A stretch of DNA of 64,000 nucleotides, taken from an uncultured Tenacibaculum sp. Lineage in GTDB: Bacteria > Bacteroidota > Bacteroidia > Flavobacteriales > Flavobacteriaceae. Position numbers and translations under genes: made by a program. The DNA lies in assembly GCA_937922085.1 (NCBI GenBank), contig CAKZVD010000003.1, positions 1 through 64,000 of the forward strand. The letters run 5' to 3'. Shown one piece after another: positions 20,760 through 28,724 of this stretch; within the stretch, counting starts at the first letter, position 1, and each line of letters begins with the position of its first letter. The notes under the pieces are model-generated. The model had not been told where the DNA came from, made no database searches, and saw only the letters and a program-made list of their open reading frames with translations.

Positions 20760-21718
20760 TAGAGGTCAGTAGTTATTTACTTATTAATTCTGCTTGATAA
20801 ATTTTATTTCCTACAACCATTTTCGTAATCAAGTTGTTGAATATTGTTGCCTTGCTCTGTGATCGATTTATTCTAAAACAGAATTCGTTAAAATATCTAT
20901 TAAGATTATCATCACTAACCCAAGAATAGGTAGTTCTTATCCAAGATTTAACTTGATGTATCATTGTGTGTAGCGCTTTGAAGTTTAATCCTTTATTGCT
21001 TTCTATTTGAGTTATATTAAATGCTTTTGCAATTGGCCTATAACCTCTCCATTTGTCTGTTGTTACTTTAGCTTCTCGGCTGATGTGATTTACAAAGATG
21101 TACTGTAGTGATTGAGCTGAAAAATCCTCTATTTTCATAGCGTACATCCTTTTAACTTTTCCGTTCTTACTAAGCTGAATGGCTGTTACTGCTTTCTTTT
21201 TCTTGCTATGATAACTTCTACCTGTCTTACCTGCATCTTTACCGCCAAGAACAAATTCATCAACGTGTACCTCTCCATCCATAGGGTTATTTCCACTGGA
21301 AGACATCGCTTCTCTTACTTTGAGCATAAATAATCTAGCTGTTTTTTCGGTTACCCCATAACGAACTCCCATATAACTTGCTGACAAGCTTTTTGTAGAT
21401 GTAGCCATTTCGAAACAAATAAAAAATGCTTTTCGAACACCAAATTTAACCTTATGAAAAAGCGTTTCTGCTGTGGCTGATTCTGTGTGCCTACAAATAT
21501 TACATTGTCTAGAAAAATCAGCACGAGATTGACAAGCTGTATGATTACATCTAGTGCATTTAAACTCTGTTGCTGATTTTATTTGAGCTAAATATTCCTT
21601 ACAATCTTCATCTGTTTTGAACCGATCAGAGAACTCTAGAAGATTTTGACCCTTGAAAACATCCATATTTTAATATCTTTATTAGTCATTAAGATACGCA
21701 TTTAAATACTGACCTCTA
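20760..21718. mobile_element. IS1595-type insertion sequence
   Basis: Terminal inverted repeats of 12 bp (TAGAGGTCAGTA on the left, its complement on the right) bracket a single transposase gene, total about 959 bp. No 8-bp target duplication is visible (left flank GTAAAATTT, right flank TCTATTTAA), which suggests a deletion next to the element or recombination between copies. Confidence 0.85.
20773..21666 (-). CDS. IS1595-family (ISXO2-like) transposase
   Basis: 297 residues, intact. An N-terminal zinc ribbon (CTRCNHTAC...CNICRHTES) precedes the DDE-type catalytic domain: DEFVLGGK carries the first Asp, TDKWRGY the second, and the last acidic or Asn residue lies in the RYFNEFCFRINR region, as is normal for ISXO2-like enzymes. 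The intact frame and inverted repeats suggest a recent or active element. It is read away from the metallophosphoesterase that it has truncated. Confidence 0.93.
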   Translation of the reverse strand: MDVFKGQNLLEFSDRFKTDEDCKEYLAQIKSATEFKCTRCNHTACQSRADFSRQCNICRHTESATAETLFHKVKFGVRKAFFICFEMATSTKSLSASYMGVRYGVTEKTARLFMLKVREAMSSSGNNPMDGEVHVDEFVLGGKDAGKTGRSYHSKKKKAVTAIQLSKNGKVKRMYAMKIEDFSAQSLQYIFVNHISREAKVTTDKWRGYRPIAKAFNITQIESNKGLNFKALHTMIHQVKSWIRTTYSWVSDDNLNRYFNEFCFRINRSQSKATIFNNLITKMVVGNKIYQAELISK

Positions 21719-22077: not shown

Positions 22078-22605
22078 ATGAAAAAGAGCACTTTTAATGA
22101 CTTTACTCTGTTTTACAATAATAGAAATTCTGATAATTGGAATTTTGCGAAGCATTATATACCAAAACAATTTGAATCAAAATATATAATTCATTGGAGC
22201 GTAGGAATAATTAATGATTTTCCTTTTGATAGATATCCTTTGAATAATATAACATTTAAAGATATGAATGAGCGAGTAAAAATAGAACAAGAATTTAATA
22301 TTTTATTAAAAGAAGAAAAAAGGTATAAATCTATTTCAATTATTGATTTGGCGAGCAGATTTAATATACCATGTTCGCATAAGACAGTAGATCTTATTCC
22401 AGAAACACCTGGAGTTACTTTATTAGAAGATTTAACTTTATTAAAACTTAAACAATCATTAAAAAGACTTTCTGAAAATTCAAAATTAAATTTACTTATT
22501 TATAATTTTGAAGATTATCAGCATTATACCAACTTAAAAGAAGAATATATAAATATTGCTTTAGAAAAATATTTTAAAATTGAAGATAATGAAGAAATGT
22601 ATTAA
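22078..22605 (+). CDS. Hypothetical protein downstream of the truncated phosphoesterase
   Basis: 175 residues, not recognised. No signal peptide or membrane segment. It is rich in Asn, Lys and aromatic residues, with a helical C-terminal half (LKLKQSLKRLSENSKL). It begins 18 bp after the phosphoesterase remnant, so it was probably the second gene of that operon and may have lost its promoter through the IS event. Confidence 0.6.
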   Translation: MKKSTFNDFTLFYNNRNSDNWNFAKHYIPKQFESKYIIHWSVGIINDFPFDRYPLNNITFKDMNERVKIEQEFNILLKEEKRYKSISIIDLASRFNIPCSHKTVDLIPETPGVTLLEDLTLLKLKQSLKRLSENSKLNLLIYNFEDYQHYTNLKEEYINIALEKYFKIEDNEEMY

Positions 22606-22718
22606 AATTAGAAAAAGAATTTTAGGACTTTATATTACTTAAGTATTTAAAATCAAAATATAAGAAGAGTAAGTAAAATAATAAATTGTAATTATATAAA
22701 ATTAAGCTGCACAAAAAT

Positions 22719-22756
22719 CACGGTAAACAGGGAATCAAAATCCCCTGTTTACCGTG
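22719..22756. other. Long perfect hairpin without a T tract
   Basis: CACGGTAAACAGGG pairs perfectly over 14 bp with CCCTGTTTACCGTG around a 10-nt loop. This is more GC-rich than its surroundings. No U-run follows on either strand, so it is not an ordinary terminator. It lies between the hypothetical gene and a GG-leader peptide gene. Confidence 0.8.
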
Positions 22757-22818
22757 TAAAGATGTAGTATCTATTTAAGTAATTTAGCATCAAATTAATT
22801 AAATAAAACCTCAAAATT

Positions 22819-23010
22819 ATGTTTAAAAACATTTCAAAATTAGGTAAAAACCTAAACAAATCTCAACAGCAAGAAATCAATGGAGGATTTAAGAAGGGAC
22901 CTATAGGAACTGAATGTGGAGGAGATGGTTCATTTATATTTCAAGATGAAATAAAAGTGTGTTGTTTCCAACCAGGTAAATTTTTAGGACAAGGAACTTA
23001 TATTTGTTAA
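22819..23010 (+). CDS. GG-leader peptide precursor, Cys-containing core
   Basis: 63 residues. The leader MFKNISKLGKNLNKSQQQEINGG ends in a double glycine, the cleavage mark of C39-type peptidase exporters, and is followed by a 40-residue core with four Cys, two adjacent (VCCF). The leader is nearly the same as those of the five peptides at 31.3-32.6 kb, so it belongs to the same family. These peptides are handled as bacteriocin-like or modified peptides in this phylum. No exporter or modifying enzyme is in the window. A terminator follows. Confidence 0.82.
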   Translation: MFKNISKLGKNLNKSQQQEINGGFKKGPIGTECGGDGSFIFQDEIKVCCFQPGKFLGQGTYIC

Positions 23011-23033
23011 TATAATTTTCCTCCTTTATCATT

Positions 23034-23079
23034 ACCCTTTGTATATTTAAAAAACCTCTTTTTTATATACAAAGGGTTT
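23034..23079 (+). terminator. Terminator-like hairpin after the peptide gene
   Basis: ACCCTTTGTATAT pairs with ATATACAAAGGGT over 13 bp around an 18-nt loop, followed by TTTATTG. Confidence 0.65.
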
Positions 23080-23209
23080 ATTGTATTTATATTTTTCAAT
23101 AGAATAAAATAAAAACACTATCATAAATAAACTCCTCAAATTTAATATTTAGAATTTGAAGTAATATTTTAATCAAGTCACATTTCTTAGTATATTTGAA
23201 TGATAATCG

Positions 23210-23626
23210 TTAATTTTTTGTTTTAGAGTAATTGCTTATACCTTCTTTTTCTAATTCAATTATAAAGTCTTCTAAATTTTCACAATATTTATTGAGGCAA
23301 TTAAATTTAAAACTTTTTTTATTTTTAAAAATTAACTTGAAACTAGGGTGATTTTTAAAAGAATTTCTATAATTATACCCTATAATATTTTTTAAAAGAA
23401 TTCTTTCATATTTAGTTTTTTCTAAAAAAATAGATTCATTACTTAAAGTTATTTTAATTTCTTTAATGTAAAATCTTTTTACTATTTCTAAAATAATAAA
23501 ACTAAACAAAAAATTAAAACAAATGAAAGTAACATAATCATTTTTTAAATAGCTAGTTATCATTAAAGATATTACAATACTTACACTATAATAAAATAGA
23601 TTAATCGTCTTAATTCTATATTTCAT
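23210..23626 (-). CDS. Small membrane protein, function unknown
   Basis: 138 residues. Two N-terminal membrane segments (about 11-27 and 33-50) are followed by a soluble beta-rich domain of about 85 residues (IKITLSNESIFLEKTKYERILLKNIIGYNYRN). The arrangement is like small membrane-anchored PH-type proteins, but I cannot name the family. It is monocistronic. Confidence 0.6.
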   Translation of the reverse strand: MKYRIKTINLFYYSVSIVISLMITSYLKNDYVTFICFNFLFSFIILEIVKRFYIKEIKITLSNESIFLEKTKYERILLKNIIGYNYRNSFKNHPSFKLIFKNKKSFKFNCLNKYCENLEDFIIELEKEGISNYSKTKN

Positions 23627-23705
23627 TCATTAAAAATTTTAAATATGAGACCAAAATATTTAATATTTTGTAGAAAATAAGTAATATTGCAGTATTAATT
23701 AAGAA

Positions 23706-23813
23706 ATGAAATTACAAAACATACATAGAAACACACAATTCGAACTTTGTTCGTATGATTTTCGCCCGAGTATTTTGCGAAAAGGAGGCTATGTATATCT
23801 AATTCAACGATGA
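23706..23813 (+). CDS. Leader peptide 1: codon roll-call of the tRNA array
   Basis: A 35-codon ORF missed by the track. Codons 11-22 (23736-23771) encode QFELCSYDFRPS: CAA, TTC, GAA, CTT, TGT, TCG, TAT, GAT, TTT, CGC, CCG, AGT. These call every one of the 11 tRNA species of the downstream array (Gln, Phe, Glu, Leu-TAG, Cys, Ser-TGA, Tyr, Asp, Arg-ACG, Pro-TGG, Ser-GCT), with only Phe used twice. CTT, CGC, CCG and TCG are unusual choices here, where Leu is mostly TTA and Arg mostly AGA. Twelve nt later, GGAGGCT (23784-23790) can pair with AGCGTCC of the next terminator with one mismatch. I infer an attenuation leader; the peptide itself probably has no other task. Confidence 0.75.
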   Translation: MKLQNIHRNTQFELCSYDFRPSILRKGGYVYLIQR

Positions 23814-23847
23814 TTTAAGTAAATTATAATAAGAAATAATACAGTAT

Positions 23848-23880
23848 AAGCGTCCAATTTAAAAATTGGACGCTTTTTTT
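23848..23880 (+). terminator. Terminator 1 (attenuator) after leader peptide 1
   Basis: AAGCGTCCAATT pairs with AATTGGACGCTT, followed by a T run. It starts 34 nt after the leader stop. Its 5' arm can alternatively pair with GGAGGCT inside the leader ORF. Confidence 0.9.
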
Positions 23881-24199
23881 ATGAAAAAAAATAAAAAATG
23901 TTTAGTTAAGAAAAGTAAATAAATAAAGAAGTAAAAAACAAGAAACAATTGAGAGACAGCCTTTTGTATAAAATGTTTATAATCTGTAAAATACGGACAG
24001 GGAGCCTAATGCTTTTATTTTAGTTAAACAATTGATTGTCAGTAAATTAATATTTATTTTTTCTTGTGTAATTAAAAAAGGTGTCCCATCTTTGCATCGT
24101 CGAAACGTAACAAAATTATTGTTTTGATATTCTGAAAAATAAATATGTATAAATTCAGAAACATTTAAAAAAGTAAAATAATCATAATTAGTAAATAAA
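23881..24199. other. Spacer between the two leader modules
   Basis: AT-rich, with no tRNA and no plus-strand ORF I can support. The 84-aa minus-strand track ORF here has no recognisable features and overlaps the second leader. A weak -7-like CATCTTTG occurs near 24089. Whether the second leader has its own promoter cannot be told. Confidence 0.5.
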
Positions 24200-24328
24200 A
24201 TGAAACAGTATTCACAACATATAACACCCAACTATTTTGAGTTTCGCTCGCCGAGTAGCCTTTATGTACTATGTAGTGATGAAGATTTTAAATATAATAA
24301 GGAGATATACTATGATGATATAAGTTAA
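24200..24328 (+). CDS. Leader peptide 2: codon roll-call directly before the tRNA array
   Basis: A 42-codon ORF missed by the track. Codons 12-30 (24233-24289) read YFEFRSPSSLYVLCSDEDF; every one except Val is decoded by an array tRNA, and ten of the eleven species occur (TAT, TTT, GAG, CGC, TCG, CCG, AGT/AGC, CTT/CTA, TGT, GAT). Gln appears at codons 3 and 6. The rare codons CGC, TCG and CCG are used as in leader 1. Eleven nt after the block, AAGGAGAT (24299-24306) matches the 3' arm of the terminator and can pair with its 5' arm (ATCTCC). So a ribosome stalled in the block would leave the antiterminator free. The first tRNA starts 75 nt after the stop. Confidence 0.78.
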   Translation: MKQYSQHITPNYFEFRSPSSLYVLCSDEDFKYNKEIYYDDIS

Positions 24329-24351
24329 TTATATACAATATAATAAAAATG

Positions 24352-24388
24352 AAAAGCATCTCCATACAAAAAAGGAGATGCTTTTTTT
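24352..24388 (+). terminator. Terminator 2 (attenuator) immediately before the tRNA array
   Basis: AAAAGCATCTCC pairs with GGAGATGCTTTT around a 10-nt loop, followed by seven T. It sits 15 bp ahead of the first tRNA gene, so array transcription must read through it. An identical GGAGAT upstream in the leader ORF offers a competing antiterminator pairing. Confidence 0.92.
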
Positions 24389-24403
24389 ATGGAATAAAAT
24401 TAA

Positions 24404-24491
24404 GGAAGAACAAGCCAATTTGGTGGTGGCCACGGTTTTGAAAACCGTTCGGAGTTAACGACTCGTGTGGGTTCGAATCCCACTTCTTCCG
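24404..24491 (+). tRNA. tRNA-Ser (TGA)
   Basis: Acceptor GGAAGAA/TTCTTCC, anticodon loop TTTGAAA between ACGGT/ACCGT, long variable arm, T-arm GTGGG-TTCGAAT-CCCAC, discriminator G followed by CA. First gene of the array. Confidence 0.95.
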
Positions 24492-24496
24492 CAATA

Positions 24497-24584
24497 GGAG
24501 AATAGGTAAAATATTGGTTTGTTACGCTTAACTGCTAATTAAGTCCATGTAAAAATGGTGAAGGTTCGATTCCTTTGTTCTCCG
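24497..24584 (+). tRNA. tRNA-Ser (GCT)
   Basis: Acceptor GGAGAAT/GTTCTCC, anticodon loop CTGCTAA between CTTAA/TTAAG, class II variable arm, discriminator G then CA. Confidence 0.93.
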
Positions 24585-24589
24585 CAAAA

Positions 24590-24662
24590 GACAAGATGGC
24601 TGAAAGGTTAAGGCAACGGACTGCAAATCCGTTTTTTATGAGTTCGAATCTCATTCTTGTCT
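24590..24662 (+). tRNA. tRNA-Cys (GCA)
   Basis: Acceptor GACAAGA/TCTTGTC, anticodon loop CTGCAAA between ACGGA/TCCGT, discriminator T (usual for Cys), then CA. Confidence 0.95.
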
Positions 24663-24720
24663 CAATGATTGATATAATTTCAAATGAATTTGAAAATTAT
24701 GTAAATCCAATTTGTGATTA

Positions 24721-24754
24721 AATGAGAAGGCGTAGCAATCTCATTCTTGTTTCA
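24721..24754 (+). repeat. Fragment of a tRNA-Cys 3' end
   Basis: AATCTCATTCTTGTTTCA repeats the T-arm and acceptor end of the preceding tRNA-Cys with one change. It lacks the rest of the molecule and is probably the scar of a lost tRNA copy. Confidence 0.6.
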
Positions 24755-24794
24755 AGAAAATAAGATCATTGACATACTGGAAAATTTAAAAAAT

Positions 24795-24866
24795 GCGCTG
24801 TTCGTATAATGGTTAGTACATCTGACTTTCTATCAGAAAATACGAGTTCAATTCTCTTACAGCGTA
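24795..24866 (+). tRNA. tRNA-Glu (TTC), copy 1
   Basis: Acceptor GCGCTGT/ACAGCGT with G1-T72, anticodon loop CTTTCTA between TCTGA/TCAGA, discriminator A then CA. The T-stem has one C-T mismatch (TACGAG/CTCTTA) that the two later copies lack, so this copy may be weakened. Confidence 0.85.
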
Positions 24867-24885
24867 CAAATTTATAATTAAAAAT

Positions 24886-24968
24886 GGAAGTGTTGAGCAA
24901 TTGGTTGGCTCGACAGACTGTAAATCTGTTCTCTTCGGAGCTTGTAGGTTCAAATCCTACCACTTCCA
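24886..24968 (+). tRNA. tRNA-Tyr (GTA), copy 1
   Basis: Acceptor GGAAGTG/CACTTCC, anticodon loop CTGTAAA, class II variable arm with a TTCG loop, T-loop TTCAAAT, discriminator A then CA. Confidence 0.95.
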
Positions 24969-24973
24969 CAAAA

Positions 24974-25046
24974 AGTACTGTAGCACAATGGCTAGTGTAT
25001 CCGACTGTCTCTCGGAAAGTTGCGGGTTCGAATCCCGTCAGTACTG
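24974..25046 (+). tRNA. tRNA-Asp (GTC), copy 1
   Basis: Acceptor AGTACTG/CAGTACT, anticodon loop CTGTCTC between TCCGA/TCGGA, T-arm GCGGG-TTCGAAT-CCCGT, discriminator G then CA. Starting with A instead of the usual G1 is unusual for Asp. Confidence 0.92.
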
Positions 25047-25052
25047 CAAAGA

Positions 25053-25112
25053 AGTACTGATGGAATGAGAAGTTTATCTCGAGCAAAGTCGAGAGGAATC
25101 CCGTCAGTACTG
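25053..25112 (+). pseudogene. 60-nt Asp-derived tRNA-like gene, copy 1
   Basis: It keeps the acceptor AGTACTG/CAGTACT, the ATCCCGT end and the G-CA terminus of tRNA-Asp, but the D and anticodon arms are replaced by a segment containing CTCGA-GCAAAG-TCGAG, a small hairpin. No anticodon is present. An identical copy exists at 25678. It is either a decayed tRNA or a tRNA mimic. Confidence 0.7.
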
Positions 25113-25117
25113 CAAAA

Positions 25118-25190
25118 CTGGGAAGATAACGATTGGGTGTTTACCTGCTTTGGATGCAGGAGGTTGTAGGTTCGAGTCCTACTTCTCAGA
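25118..25190 (+). tRNA. tRNA-Pro (TGG), copy 1
   Basis: Acceptor CTGGGAA/TTCTCAG, anticodon loop TTTGGAT between CCTGC/GCAGG, T-loop TTCGAGT, discriminator A then CA. Confidence 0.93.
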
Positions 25191-25197
25191 CAAAAAT

Positions 25198-25267
25198 GCG
25201 CTGTTAGTAACGGTTAGTACATCTGACTTTCTATCAGAAAATAGGAGTTCGATTCTCCTACAGAGTA
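25198..25267 (+). tRNA. tRNA-Glu (TTC), copy 2
   Basis: Same anticodon arm as copy 1, regular T-stem TAGGAG/CTCCTA. The D-loop is 2 nt shorter (GTTAGTAACGG against GTTAGTATAACGG in copy 3) and the acceptor has a G-A mismatch, so function is doubtful. Confidence 0.78.
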
Positions 25268-25277
25268 CAAATAAAAT

Positions 25278-25351
25278 GCAGGAATGGCGGAATTGGCATA
25301 CGCGTCTGATTTAGAATCAGAATTTTGAGAGTTCGAGTCTCTCTTCCTGTA
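25278..25351 (+). tRNA. tRNA-Leu (TAG) with short variable loop, copy 1
   Basis: Acceptor GCAGGAA/TTCCTGT, anticodon loop TTTAGAA between TCTGA/TCAGA, D-arm GGCGGAATTGGCATACGC typical of Leu. The variable region is only about 5 nt instead of the long class II arm, giving 74 nt in all. Discriminator A then CA. Confidence 0.88.
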
Positions 25352-25391
25352 CAAGTAAAAGATTTAGAATTTATTTCTTTCTCTAGAAGAT

Positions 25392-25463
25392 AGACCTGTG
25401 ATGTAATGGTTAGCATACAAGATTTTGATTCTTGTTGTATAGGTTCAAATCCTGTCAGGTTTA
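25392..25463 (+). tRNA. tRNA-Gln (TTG), copy 1
   Basis: Acceptor AGACCTG/CAGGTTT, anticodon loop TTTTGAT between CAAGA/TCTTG, T-loop TTCAAAT, discriminator A then CA. Confidence 0.92.
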
Positions 25464-25510
25464 CAAATGATGATTTTAGTTTATTTAAAATAAAAGGAAG
25501 TCATTTAAAT

Positions 25511-25593
25511 GGAAGTGTTGAGCAATTGGTTGGCTCGACAGACTGTAAATCTGTTCTCTTCGGAGCTTGTAGGTTCGAATCCTACCACTTCCA
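25511..25593 (+). tRNA. tRNA-Tyr (GTA), copy 2
   Basis: Same as copy 1 except T-loop TTCGAAT. Discriminator A then CA. Confidence 0.95.
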
Positions 25594-25598
25594 CAAAA

Positions 25599-25671
25599 AG
25601 TACTGTAGCACAATGGCTAGTGTATCCGACTGTCTATCGGAAAGTTGCGGGTTCGAATCCCGTCAGTACTG
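25599..25671 (+). tRNA. tRNA-Asp (GTC), copy 2
   Basis: Same as copy 1 with anticodon loop CTGTCTA. Discriminator G then CA. Confidence 0.92.
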
Positions 25672-25677
25672 CAAAGA

Positions 25678-25737
25678 AGTACTGATGGAATGAGAAGTTT
25701 ATCTCGAGCAAAGTCGAGAGGAATCCCGTCAGTACTG
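25678..25737 (+). pseudogene. 60-nt Asp-derived tRNA-like gene, copy 2
   Basis: Identical to the copy at 25053: intact Asp acceptor stem and G-CA end, no anticodon arm, internal CTCGA/TCGAG hairpin. Confidence 0.7.
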
Positions 25738-25742
25738 CAAAA

Positions 25743-25815
25743 CTGGGAAGATAACGATTGGATGTTTACCTGCTTTGGATGCAGGAGGTTGTAGGTTCAA
25801 GTCCTACTTCTCAGA
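25743..25815 (+). tRNA. tRNA-Pro (TGG), copy 2
   Basis: Differs from copy 1 in the D-loop (GGATG for GGGTG) and T-loop (TTCAAGT). Discriminator A then CA. Confidence 0.93.
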
Positions 25816-25822
25816 CAAAAAT

Positions 25823-25894
25823 GCGCTGTTAGTATAACGGTTAGTACATCTGACTTTCTATCAGAAAATAGGAGCTCGATTCTCCTATAGAGTA
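25823..25894 (+). tRNA. tRNA-Glu (TTC), copy 3
   Basis: Full-length D-loop, anticodon loop CTTTCTA, T-loop CTCGATT, acceptor GCGCTGT/ATAGAGT with one G-A mismatch. Discriminator A then CA. Confidence 0.82.
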
Positions 25895-25905
25895 CAAAAT
25901 TAAAT

Positions 25906-25979
25906 GCGGGAATGGCGGAATTGGCATACGCGTCTGATTTAGAATCAGAATTTTGAGAGTTCAAATCTCTCTTCCCGTA
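25906..25979 (+). tRNA. tRNA-Leu (TAG) with short variable loop, copy 2
   Basis: Acceptor GCGGGAA/TTCCCGT. Against copy 1 the third pair is G-C instead of A-T, a compensated change that shows the stem is kept by selection. The same ~5-nt variable loop is present. Confidence 0.88.
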
Positions 25980-26018
25980 CAAATAAAGAATTAGAATTTA
26001 TTTCTTTCTCTAGAAGAT

Positions 26019-26090
26019 AGACCTGTGATGTAATGGTTAGCATACAAGATTTTGATTCTTGTTGTATAGGTTCGAATCCTGTCAGGTTTA
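26019..26090 (+). tRNA. tRNA-Gln (TTG), copy 2
   Basis: As copy 1 with T-loop TTCGAAT. Discriminator A then CA. Confidence 0.92.
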
Positions 26091-26138
26091 CAAAATGTTG
26101 ATTTTAATTTATTTAAAATAAAAGGAAGTTATCTAAAC

Positions 26139-26211
26139 GGAACAATAGCAAAGTTGGTCAATGCATCGGATTGAAGCTCCGAAGATACAGGTTCAATTCC
26201 TGTTTGTTCCA
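26139..26211 (+). tRNA. tRNA-Phe (GAA)
   Basis: Acceptor GGAACAA/TTGTTCC, anticodon loop TTGAAGC between TCGGA/TCCGA, T-arm ACAGG-TTCAATT-CCTGT, discriminator A then CA. It lies 27 bp before the ykuK-like gene. Confidence 0.93.
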
Positions 26212-26238
26212 CAAAAAAAATGTTAAAAAGAATGAATT

Positions 26239-26718
26239 ATGAAAAAAGAAAAATGGAAAAGTTTTAGTGGTAAAGTATTTGAAAAACCTATAATTAATGT
26301 TATTGAAAATGCAATTATAAAAGAACAAAAGGCAGGATACCGTTTAAAAATTTATGTGGGTTCAGATTCACAAGCTTATAAAACCCATGTAGAATATGCT
26401 ACAGTTATTGTAGTATTAAGAGAAGGAAAAGGAGGATTTATGTTTGTTAGAAATGATAAAGGCACAAAACAAATAGGTATTAAAGAACGTATGCTTAAAG
26501 AAGTAACGATGTCTGTTGAAGTTGCCTATGAAATTTGTAACGTATTAGATAAATATGATGTTGATTTAGAGGTACACGCAGATATTAATACAGATCCTAA
26601 ATTTGAATCTAATATAGCACTGAAAGATGCTATGGGATATATTTTAGGTATGGGATTTAAATTTAAAGCGAAGCCTTATGCATTTGCAAGTTCTTCTTGT
26701 GCAGATAGTATGGTTTAA
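26239..26718 (+). CDS. RNase H-like YkuK family protein (DUF458)
   Basis: 159 residues, the usual family length. The conserved acidic and other residues of this RNase H-fold family are visible: YVGSDSQAY (about 39-47), LEVHADINTDPKFESN (about 110-125) and a C-terminal KPYAFASSSCADSMV. The fold predicts a metal-dependent nuclease or nucleic-acid binder; no activity is established that I can cite. It is embedded in the tRNA array, 27 bp after tRNA-Phe and 49 bp before tRNA-Arg, so it is almost certainly part of the same transcription unit and likely acts on these RNAs. Confidence 0.88.
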   Translation: MKKEKWKSFSGKVFEKPIINVIENAIIKEQKAGYRLKIYVGSDSQAYKTHVEYATVIVVLREGKGGFMFVRNDKGTKQIGIKERMLKEVTMSVEVAYEICNVLDKYDVDLEVHADINTDPKFESNIALKDAMGYILGMGFKFKAKPYAFASSSCADSMV

Positions 26719-26735
26719 TAACAGTATAATATTAA

Positions 26736-26763
26736 AAAATGAATTTCCCTGGAGATTCATTTT
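26736..26763 (+). terminator. Hairpin after the ykuK-like gene
   Basis: AAAATGAATTTC pairs with GAGATTCATTTT around CCTG. It could be a terminator or an RNA-processing site, since tRNA-Arg follows 4 bp later. Confidence 0.6.
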
Positions 26764-26767
26764 AAAA

Positions 26768-26840
26768 AGGAATATAGTTTAATTGGATAAAATTTTAGAG
26801 TACGATTCTAAAGATGCGGGTTCGAGTCTTGCTATTCCTA
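26768..26840 (+). tRNA. tRNA-Arg (ACG)
   Basis: Acceptor AGGAATA/TATTCCT, anticodon loop GTACGAT between TTAGA/TCTAA, T-arm GCGGG-TTCGAGT-CTTGC, discriminator A then CA. The G at position 32 is unusual. It reads CGT/CGC/CGA if A34 is deaminated, including the CGC used in both leader peptides. Confidence 0.85.
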
Positions 26841-27065
26841 CAAAATTTAAAATATTTTTTATTACGCAAAAAGAATGCGTAATACCATAGAACATTTGTA
26901 GTGTTATTATGAAAAAGAAATAACGTCGAAGGGAGAATTGCAAAGAAAAAGAGAAAGTGGCCTCATCATAACGGGGAGTATGGTGAGGTAAATTAAAAAA
27001 GTTCATAAACATATTAAGGAGTAATAGTTTTATAATAAAAGACTATCTCTCTATAATTAAAAATA

Positions 27066-27226
27066 TCAAGCGAGTCTTGTTGCGTGTTTCTGTATAACAC
27101 CATTGTATACAGCTCTACAGTTTTTGTATGGAGTTTGTATATGCAACTTGACTTGAAGGTTTCGATTATTCACCAAAAAATAATCACACTCTAAGGGTTG
27201 TAGGTTCGAGTCCTACCATGATTAAA
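27066..27226 (+). ncRNA. Candidate structured RNA with tRNA-like 3' end
   Basis: A long hairpin is closed by CAAG..AGTC..GTTGC pairing with GCAAC..GACT.. across symmetric internal loops (27066-27155). It is followed by a tRNA-like fold: acceptor TAATCA/TGATTA, a small ACTC-TAA-GGGT hairpin and a perfect T-arm GTAGG-TTCGAGT-CCTAC. This has neither a D nor an anticodon arm. A stem joined to a tRNA-like module is the general plan of bacterial Y RNAs, but no Ro60 gene is in the window, so the link is only a suggestion. Confidence 0.35.
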
Positions 27227-27227
27227 A

Positions 27228-27327
27228 ATCATGTAGTTCAATTGGTAGAACATTAGATTATCTAGACTGAAAATCTAGACTTAGGTTACACCTTTATGGT
27301 AAGTTGGTTCGAATCCAATATTAACTC
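27228..27327 (+). pseudogene. Degenerate tRNA-like sequence
   Basis: It has a regular D-arm (GTTCAATTGGTAGAAC), a hairpin TCTAGA-CTGAAAA-TCTAGA that would give anticodon GAA, and a T-arm GTTGG-TTCGAAT-CCAAT ending ...AACTCA. No 5' strand pairs with the 3' acceptor, and an extra ~23-nt variable region is present, so I take it as a decayed tRNA. Confidence 0.5.
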
Positions 27328-27623
27328 AAGCTCATCATCTTATAAAACTGATGAATTAGGAAAAAACAATACGTTTTAAATTCGTTCTGCAAAAGAACAC
27401 TCTTAAACGTACTTTGAGATTCTTATTTTTAGTATAAGTAAATACTGCTTTTTTAATAATCAGTTGTTACTATTTATAGTTACAATCCATTTTTAATAAT
27501 AAAGTATAAACTAGTAGTAAACATAAATATTTCCGTTAGCTTAAAAGTATTTAAGCGTATTGTTTTTATTAAATACAAAAAAGAAAATTTCTATATAAGA
27601 GATTATTATAAATAAAAAATAAA

Positions 27624-28724
27624 ATGAAAAAAGTAAGAATTAACACAGGAAAAGTTGGATTAGTTTTCAAAAAGGGAGAATATCAAAAAGTACTAAATAA
27701 GGGAACTTATTGGTTAGGTTTTAATCAAGAGGTGGTTATCTATGATATTACACAAGAATTTCATTCTAATGTAGCTATTGAAATTTTATTGGAAGATAAA
27801 GAGTTAGTAGAGATGCTAGAAATTGTTCAAGTAAAAGATAATGAATTGGTTTTAGTATATGAAAATGAAAACTTTAAAAGAGTATTACAAGCAGGAAGGT
27901 ATATCTTTTGGAAAGGTTTAATAAACAGAACATTTCAAAATATAGATACTAGTAAAATTTACATTACAGAAAATTTAGATAAATCATTGTTTAGTAACTA
28001 CGAATTAAATAAATACATACGTTTATTTGAAGTTGCTACTTATGAAAAAGCGATTTTATTAGTAGATGATGTACATACAAAAACTTTAACAGGAGGAACC
28101 TATCGTTTTTGGAGAAATGACACGTCTATTAAAATATCAAAAGCAGATACAAGACAGTTACAATTAGAAATTGGAGGTCAAGAATTATTAACAAAAGATA
28201 AAGCAACAGTAAGAATCAATTTTTATACACAATATAAAGTTGTTAATATAGAAAAAGCTTTATTAGATAATAAAGAGTATGAAAAACAATTATACCTTTT
28301 AATGCAACTTGCTTTAAGAACGTATGTTGGAGGGTATAGTTTAGATGAATTGTTAGAAAAGAAAGAAGATATTGCAATTGCTGTATTTGATGAAGTATCT
28401 AAAAAGACAGAAAATTTAGGAGTAACTGTTCTTAATTGTGGGATTAGAGATGTAATTTTAACTGGTGATATGAAAGAAATTATGAACCAGGTTTTGATTG
28501 CACAAAAAAAAGCACAAGCAAATATTATTACTAGGCGAGAGGAAACGGCTTCTACTAGAAGTTTATTAAATACAGCTAAACTAATGGAAGGTAATGAAAT
28601 GTTGTTCAAACTAAAAGAAATGGAATATGTAGAAAAAATTGCAGATAAAATTGGAGAAATCACCCTTTCAGGAAATGGAAATATGGTGAAAGAGTTAAAA
28701 GGAATTTTTACTGTTAATAAATAA
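27624..28724 (+). CDS. Slipin family (SPFH/band 7) protein
   Basis: 366 residues. An N-terminal part of about 125 residues with two repeats of a K.G.YW/RYIFWKG pattern precedes an SPFH/band-7 domain (about 135-300; TLTGGTYRFWRN, KDKATVRINFYTQYKV, GGYSLDELL) and a helical C-terminus (AQKKAQANIITRREETASTRSLLNTAKLMEGNEMLFKLKEMEYVEKIA). There is no transmembrane helix, so it is a soluble or peripheral oligomer. Slipins of this type often sit beside RNA-repair genes such as rtcB in bacteria (from general knowledge). Here it follows the tRNA array on the same strand, which agrees with a role in RNA stress. Confidence 0.88.
   Translation: MKKVRINTGKVGLVFKKGEYQKVLNKGTYWLGFNQEVVIYDITQEFHSNVAIEILLEDKELVEMLEIVQVKDNELVLVYENENFKRVLQAGRYIFWKGLINRTFQNIDTSKIYITENLDKSLFSNYELNKYIRLFEVATYEKAILLVDDVHTKTLTGGTYRFWRNDTSIKISKADTRQLQLEIGGQELLTKDKATVRINFYTQYKVVNIEKALLDNKEYEKQLYLLMQLALRTYVGGYSLDELLEKKEDIAIAVFDEVSKKTENLGVTVLNCGIRDVILTGDMKEIMNQVLIAQKKAQANIITRREETASTRSLLNTAKLMEGNEMLFKLKEMEYVEKIADKIGEITLSGNGNMVKELKGIFTVNK

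Follow-up and report, generated by a model that had tools for sequence, protein, structure and literature searches.

Attenuators of amino-acid operons (trp, his, thr, ilv) consist of a short translated open reading frame (ORF), codons for the sensed tRNA ahead of a strand that can pair with the terminator, an intrinsic terminator and the output genes, and the position of the ribosome selects whether the antiterminator or the terminator is formed. To our knowledge, the attenuators known to date read one to three amino acids. Here, the control region of a tRNA array in an uncultured Tenacibaculum sp. is described (contig CAKZVD010000003.1, positions 1 to 64,000; this whole stretch is referred to as the window), in which ORF, control codons, pairing strand, terminator and genes behind recur in the same manner. 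In contrast to the amino-acid operons with their one to three amino acids, the leaders of the array contain about 11 to 21 codon boxes, the output comprises tRNA and RNA-repair genes instead of biosynthesis genes, and two putative attenuators with two promoters are present. Altogether, it is assumed with a probability of roughly 0.7 that paired ribosome-controlled transcription attenuators precede a set of reserve tRNA genes and poll the whole tRNA pool.

T-box leaders of Gram-positive tRNA and synthetase genes likewise sense the state of a tRNA and attenuate translation-related genes. However, they bind one uncharged tRNA directly and are covered by an Rfam model, whereas a search of positions 22500-27500 and of seven relatives against Rfam returned tRNAs only and left the T-box covariance model unmatched. 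In Proteobacteria, rtcBA is controlled by the sigma-54 activator RtcR, whereas at the loci described here leader ORFs precede rtcB and apparently place it in one regulon with tRNA arrays. RtcB and PrfH genes and a presumed RNA-damage response are common to these loci, to RtcR-rtcBA and to the RtcB2-PrfH modules (PMC9223846). Furthermore, it was proposed for phage-borne tRNAs that they withstand anticodon nucleases and replace cleaved host tRNAs (PMC10264068). The array tRNAs resemble these in being divergent and redundant with those of the host, but differ from them in that the array is chromosomal, conserved across genera, preceded by putative leader-ORF attenuators, and has leaders in common with cellular repair ligases. 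Literature searches on leader peptides with tRNA arrays or operons, on RtcB leaders and on attenuation by tRNA cleavage found no earlier description, most subscription papers and preprints lying outside the search.

Control region and leader ORFs of the window

The array comprises 18 tRNA genes of 11 species between 24404 and 26841 (Ser-TGA, Ser-GCT, Cys, Glu, Tyr, Asp, Pro-TGG, Leu-TAG, Gln, Phe and Arg-ACG). Before it lie, in this order, a promoter-like site (P1), a first leader ORF (ORF1), a terminator (T1), an RNA hairpin, a second promoter-like site (P2), a second leader ORF (ORF2) and a second terminator (T2); all features of the window are on the plus strand unless stated otherwise.

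ORF1 (23706-23813; 35 codons, MKLQNIHRNTQFELCSYDFRPSILRKGGYVYLIQR) has homologues in other Tenacibaculum array loci. Its codons 11 to 22 (23736-23771) read CAA TTC GAA CTT TGT TCG TAT GAT TTT CGC CCG AGT and, as claimed in a first-pass annotation of this DNA, cover all 11 tRNA species of the array with Phe alone repeated. Among the 55,833 stop-free 12-codon frames of the 64-kb window (six frames, overlapping), the one at 23736 is the only frame with 11 of 11 array boxes. Corresponding ORFs to ORF2 (24200-24328; 42 codons, MKQYSQHITPNYFEFRSPSSLYVLCSDEDFKYNKEIYYDDIS) were found in about 107 array loci. The annotation had counted 18 array codons out of 19 for this ORF, and the respective block (24233-24289) turned out to be the single top scorer among the 39,197 19-codon frames of the window. 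The sole non-array codon is Val, and Gln is absent from the block itself and present just before it. CGC, CCG, TCG and CTT, described as uncommon, account for 2% of the Arg, 5% of the Pro, 3% of the Ser and 13% of the Leu codons in the genes of the window. Since CGC-CCG in ORF1 is enclosed by a local hairpin (TTTTCGC...GCGAAAA), RNA structure may share responsibility for the choice of rare codons in this ORF.

The leader could also have been kept for its RNA structure or its nascent peptide, the codon match being a by-product of coincidence and descent. Local hairpins within the block, which account for some of the ORF1 codons, and third codon positions that are just slightly more variable than the first and second ones would fit such an origin. 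Given that the 11/11 match is unique in the window, that the clades share few block residues and yet all their leaders are rich in codon boxes, and that conservation of a C-terminal arrest motif is absent among the leaders, this explanation is considered highly improbable.

Each ORF is followed by an intrinsic terminator, as had been annotated: T1 (23848-23875 or, in the wider delimitation, 23848-23882) comprises a 12-bp stem and a T run, while T2 (24351-24386 or 24351-24392, respectively) was overlooked by a simple terminator scanner due to its long loop. P1 (23682-23695) was read from the sequence with the Bacteroidota promoter consensus and consists of an element resembling the -7 element (TAATATTG) and a putative start region; similar TAnnTTTG-like elements occur at this position in relatives, for example CATATCTTTGCG at locus L042. 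P2 (24064-24096; TTG ... CATCTTTGCA) was recognized in an alignment of 14 loci, in which TTG and TTTGCA are invariant. Accordingly, of the idea of two leaders before the array, the presence of both holds true, but they are not simply arranged in series. Since ORF2 has its own promoter-like site, any control by ORF1 is predicted to be limited to RNA initiated at P1.

The RNA hairpin (23984-24001; CTGT AAAAT ACGG ACAGG), which lies between T1 and P2, is conserved in related sites and present in all four gene classes described below. It often reads CTGAA-GAAA-TTCGG, followed by ACAGGA. Its stem is perfect in 153 of 193 sites and covaries by compensatory changes, the fourth pair taking all four Watson-Crick types. 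U.G pairs are frequent, which suggests that the signal is carried by the RNA and not by the DNA. Only RNA initiated at P1 and extended beyond T1 would contain the hairpin. A model of the element yielded zero consensus base pairs, as the clades are offset by two columns, and the hairpin became clear once the sites were anchored on the GGA-AG motif.

Pairing and codon content of the leaders in Flavobacteriales

The same plan of short ORF, terminator, RNA hairpin, promoter, second short ORF, terminator and tRNA array is shared by more than 100 loci in Tenacibaculum, in the Winogradskyella/Psychroserpens/Bizionia group and in Flavobacterium-like and Chryseobacterium-like genera. A search model built from the stretch between hairpin and P2 matched 114 of 166 Tenacibaculum genomes at E <= 0.01 (about 110 among the matches listed with E < 1e-5), 142 of 148 genomes of a genus that appears to be Chryseobacterium-like, and scattered other genera of the order. 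Further loci in Winogradskyella, Psychroserpens, Lacinutrix, Bizionia, Dokdonia and Flavivirga were added by a search with the RNaseH_like protein of the array. At almost every locus, a terminator preceded by a short ORF lies on either side of the element. Thus, a short ORF near a promoter is kept in relatives at more than 100 loci, and at nearly all of them a terminator separates the ORF from the genes. In Tenacibaculum, the dual leader precedes four kinds of genes, namely tRNA arrays, rtcB-prfH, an RNA ligase and a two-component system. The genome of the window contains one locus of each kind, on contigs C3, C82, C119 and C41.

In each of these classes, the last part of the ORF contains a strand, located about 17-40 nt upstream of the final stop-codon base, whose sequence complements the 5' arm of the following terminator. 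In the window, strand 1 (23784-23790) reads GGAGGCT, compared to GGATGCT in most relatives, and pairs with AGCGTCC of T1; strand 2 (24299-24306) reads AAGGAGAT, within which GGAGAT pairs with ATCTCC of T2. For ORF2 of the Tenacibaculum arrays, AAGGAGAT pairs with ATCTCCTT. The Chryseobacterium-like loci combine AGGTGCTT with AAGCGCCT in ORF2 and TGAGGCG with CGCCTCG in ORF1, and the rtcB class combines GGACGCT with AGCGTCC in ORF1 and GCTTCG with CGAAGC in ORF2. Although the pairs vary by class and clade, the complementarity is kept, so that antiterminator and terminator exclude each other and change in a compensatory manner. As long as the RNA still lacks the 3' arm of the terminator, it is predicted to fold into a long antiterminator hairpin including the stop codon region, with a mean pairing probability of 0.86-0.97 in the tRNA and rtcB classes and energies of -12.2 (ORF1) and -8.6 kcal/mol (ORF2) in the window. 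As far as can be judged from sequence, this kept pairing is the anatomy of a ribosome-controlled attenuator.

In the proposed mechanism, the leader ORF would be translated with RNA polymerase still close ahead. A ribosome that reached the stop codon without hindrance would disrupt the antiterminator hairpin, so that the terminator would form and the array would remain off. With a ribosome stalled in the codon block for lack of a charged tRNA, the last part of the ORF would instead be paired to the terminator's 5' arm, and RNA polymerase would read on into the array. An antiterminator that is broken up at the stop codon and intact during a stall follows the logic of classical attenuation, and the analogy to amino-acid operons drawn in the annotation is supported by more than 100 loci with two leader ORFs, terminators and predicted covarying antiterminators. 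A block in which almost all codon boxes occur a single time, some of them as rare synonymous codons, would poll the whole tRNA pool, weighted to those tRNAs that the array can replace.

Since the anatomy is identical to that of amino-acid operon leaders, and since a stalled ribosome is blind to the difference between an uncharged and a destroyed tRNA, an attenuator for amino-acid starvation of the trp or his type has to be considered, its long list of amino acids being accidental. However, the controlled genes are tRNAs, RNA ligases and PrfH, none of which makes an amino acid, and the listed amino acids are without a metabolic theme and written in rare synonymous boxes. Such an attenuator can therefore scarcely be the explanation.

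The part of the leader upstream of the antiterminator strand was scored for 23 codon boxes, with random gene windows of equal length as control. The leaders are near-pangrams, containing about 17-21 of the 23 boxes compared to 14-16 in random windows, and exceed random in six clades. For ORF1, the determined values were 17.5 (random 13.7) in Tenacibaculum, 21.2 (15.2) in the Winogradskyella group and 21.2 (15.0) in the Chryseobacterium-like genus. Single leader ORFs cover 91-98% of the boxes of their own array compared to 52-68% for random gene windows. Degenerate tRNAs lead to an undercount of the array content, and the related loci compared in these coverage tests are statistically dependent. 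In Tenacibaculum, the coverage amounts to 0.91 for ORF1 (random 0.52) and 0.97 for ORF2 (random 0.60), while non-array boxes occur at or below random. The enrichment of boxes in these leaders correlates with their frequency in the arrays (Spearman 0.72 and 0.81). For example, Val and Met are absent from the Tenacibaculum arrays and uncommon in the leaders, whereas in the Winogradskyella group they are frequent in both. Control codons matching the regulated function thus stand before the antiterminator strand, the match being loose outside Tenacibaculum.

Co-variation of leader and array was determined from sister contrasts. In 48 independent nearest-neighbour pairs, boxes that differed in both array and leader did so 34 times in parallel and 6 times in opposite directions, while ratios of 21.9:15.8 and 20.8:11.7 are expected under two permutation nulls (p<2e-4). 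The largest contribution came from the CGN codons of Arg (10:1). A pooled test of Arg codons (CGN versus AGR; 33:16 versus 23:67, p=2e-6) was set aside, as it is confounded by clade and the Chryseobacterium-like genus alone gave p=0.16; hence, only the sister contrasts were relied on.

Several observations weigh against a polling of the tRNA pool by leaders that follow their arrays. In the Chryseobacterium-like and Winogradskyella-like clades, box frequency is uncorrelated with array frequency, the leaders calling nearly all tRNAs, and 374 array changes between sisters occurred without a change of the leader. In addition, a plain comparison of frequencies between clades gave no significant signal. 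The annotation had expected upstream ORFs at other arrays to follow the tRNA content; coverage and sister contrasts bear this out, but the tracking is loose. A strict one-to-one roll call at every array was rejected, since leaders outside Tenacibaculum call nearly all tRNAs and arrays often change alone, and the leaders are better described as array-weighted near-pangrams than as exact copies of the array list. ORF1 of the rtcB class comprises about 8 codons before the antiterminator and no pangram, and may therefore respond to initiation or to a small number of tRNAs instead of polling the entire pool. The antiterminator of ORF1 in the window contains one mismatch (G.G). Finally, P2 and the hairpin between T1 and P2 are left unaccounted for by the attenuator model.

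Genes behind the leaders and the presumed cue

In the class of the tRNA arrays, the RNaseH_like protein follows, often together with a Band_7 protein. The rtcB-prfH class was assigned by the Pfam families RtcB and RF-1 and by the NCBIfam model for peptide chain release factor H, which scored above its cut-off. A protein before rtcB, by eye taken for TROVE/Ro, was rejected as such, since Pfam identified it as PcfJ-like. The RNA ligase contains the T4 Rnl2 C-terminal domain (Pfam), and the two-component system consists of a tetratricopeptide repeat (TPR) histidine kinase and a response regulator. The shared leaders of these classes apparently define a regulon for tRNA or RNA damage, whose output would comprise divergent redundant tRNAs and, at the paralogous loci, RtcB and PrfH, the ligase of the Rnl2 type and the two-component system.

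The presence of the same leader before rtcB-prfH and the Rnl2-like ligase lends indirect support to tRNA damage as the trigger presumed in the annotation. The most likely cue would be the destruction of tRNAs, and perhaps rRNA, by ribotoxins such as anticodon nucleases that are released by rivals, phages or defence systems. RtcB2-PrfH shields E. coli against colicin E3 and reportedly not against tRNA-targeting toxins (PMC9223846). Therefore, the range of cues for the regulon may extend beyond tRNA cleavage.

This leads to the question whether the leaders are a general sensor of slowed translation, in which any stall, caused by antibiotics, damaged ribosomes or starvation, keeps the terminator from forming and codon diversity is incidental or evens out the sensitivity. 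The same leader type before rtcB-prfH, with RtcB2-PrfH guarding against ribosome cleavage (PMC9223846), an ORF1 without pangram zone in the rtcB class, and the ORF1 leaders of the histidine-kinase class, which are diverse as well, could all be explained in this way. However, a generic sensor would need neither the selective coverage of array boxes in Tenacibaculum nor the co-variation of leader and array between sisters. As it explains the rtcB members and not the co-variation, it is regarded as unlikely.

With some reservation, we favour a tRNA-damage regulon of Flavobacteriales that would operate without a protein sensor: a stall at any codon of the near-pangram leaders would switch on reserve tRNAs, RtcB-PrfH and the Rnl2-like ligase, and the leaders would evolve with the tRNA content of their own array. 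If true, such leaders would monitor, by reading almost all codon boxes, whether the tRNA pool itself is intact. Furthermore, this would explain chromosomal arrays of divergent redundant tRNAs, a question shared with phage tRNAs, and provide a control logic and a predicted regulon for RNA repair in Bacteroidota.

Two side observations concern the paralogous loci. In the histidine-kinase class (L144, L150, L159), the interval from T2 to the kinase contains a third leader-like ORF (NEKGRLLI...) as well as a conserved stretch (GTAGAATTTCCTGAAGTCTGTTGTACTCAATAGGCC), about 450-800 bases past the element; an Rfam search of them gave no match. Near the RNA ligase, tRNA-like genes are split in the anticodon loop by inserts of about 40-90 nt (L043 on contig C119 of the window's genome, 4600-5500; L116; L180, 1700-2120, minus strand). 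Inserts and spacers carry a 21-nt motif (AGGTCA-N9-TACTTC), of which 5 copies occur within 700 bases on C119 and 4 copies at a Flavobacterium-like locus, there again within a tRNA-like gene. Decaying tRNAs, a bait or a new kind of insert are candidate explanations.

The tRNA array and its neighbours

The main part of the array (24404-26212) was determined by ARAGORN and Rfam and comprises 17 genes in the order Ser-TGA, Ser-GCT, Cys, Glu, twice the series Tyr, Asp, Pro, Glu, Leu-TAG, Gln, and finally Phe. Ser-GCT at 24497 was found by Rfam and by ARAGORN with relaxed settings, and missed by ARAGORN with default settings. The repeated series results from a tandem duplication of a 630-bp block with six tRNAs (24885-26135), the copies being 95.7% identical. 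The final member, tRNA-Arg (ACG; 26768-26841), is separated from the rest by the gene for the RNaseH_like protein (26239-26718; 159 aa, PF04308, Pfam E=1.8e-34), the usual neighbour of such arrays. A 159-aa protein of the window shares 99% identity with a protein of an uncultured Tenacibaculum, in line with the assignment of the window to this genus. A Band_7/SPFH protein, a common downstream neighbour, follows at 27624-28724.

A comparison with the core tRNAs showed that the array tRNAs are redundant yet divergent. For each of the 12 array species of the complete genome G127, a core copy exists elsewhere, to which the array tRNA is only 45-63% identical, with the same anticodon and mostly different anticodon stems. 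In the incomplete genome of the window, the identity to core counterparts was 54-65% for the species found. This redundancy and divergence is consistent with a reserve able to withstand nucleases, as proposed for phage tRNAs (PMC10264068).

The gene for tRNA-Cys is followed by an extra hairpin and acceptor strand (24664-24760), in which the 3' end of this tRNA recurs (ATGAGA...TCTCATTCTTGTTTC), resembling a spare 3' half; this piece is conserved in L037 and L038. A similar 3' piece follows tRNA-Asp (25048-25110). Upstream of the control region, a 63-aa peptide (MFKNISKLGKNLNKSQQQEINGG..., 22819-23010) is encoded, which gave no NCBIfam match; its start resembles a double-glycine leader, so that it is perhaps a bacteriocin-like precursor. 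Further upstream, a transposase of the IS1595 family (NCBIfam) lies at 20773-21666 on the minus strand.
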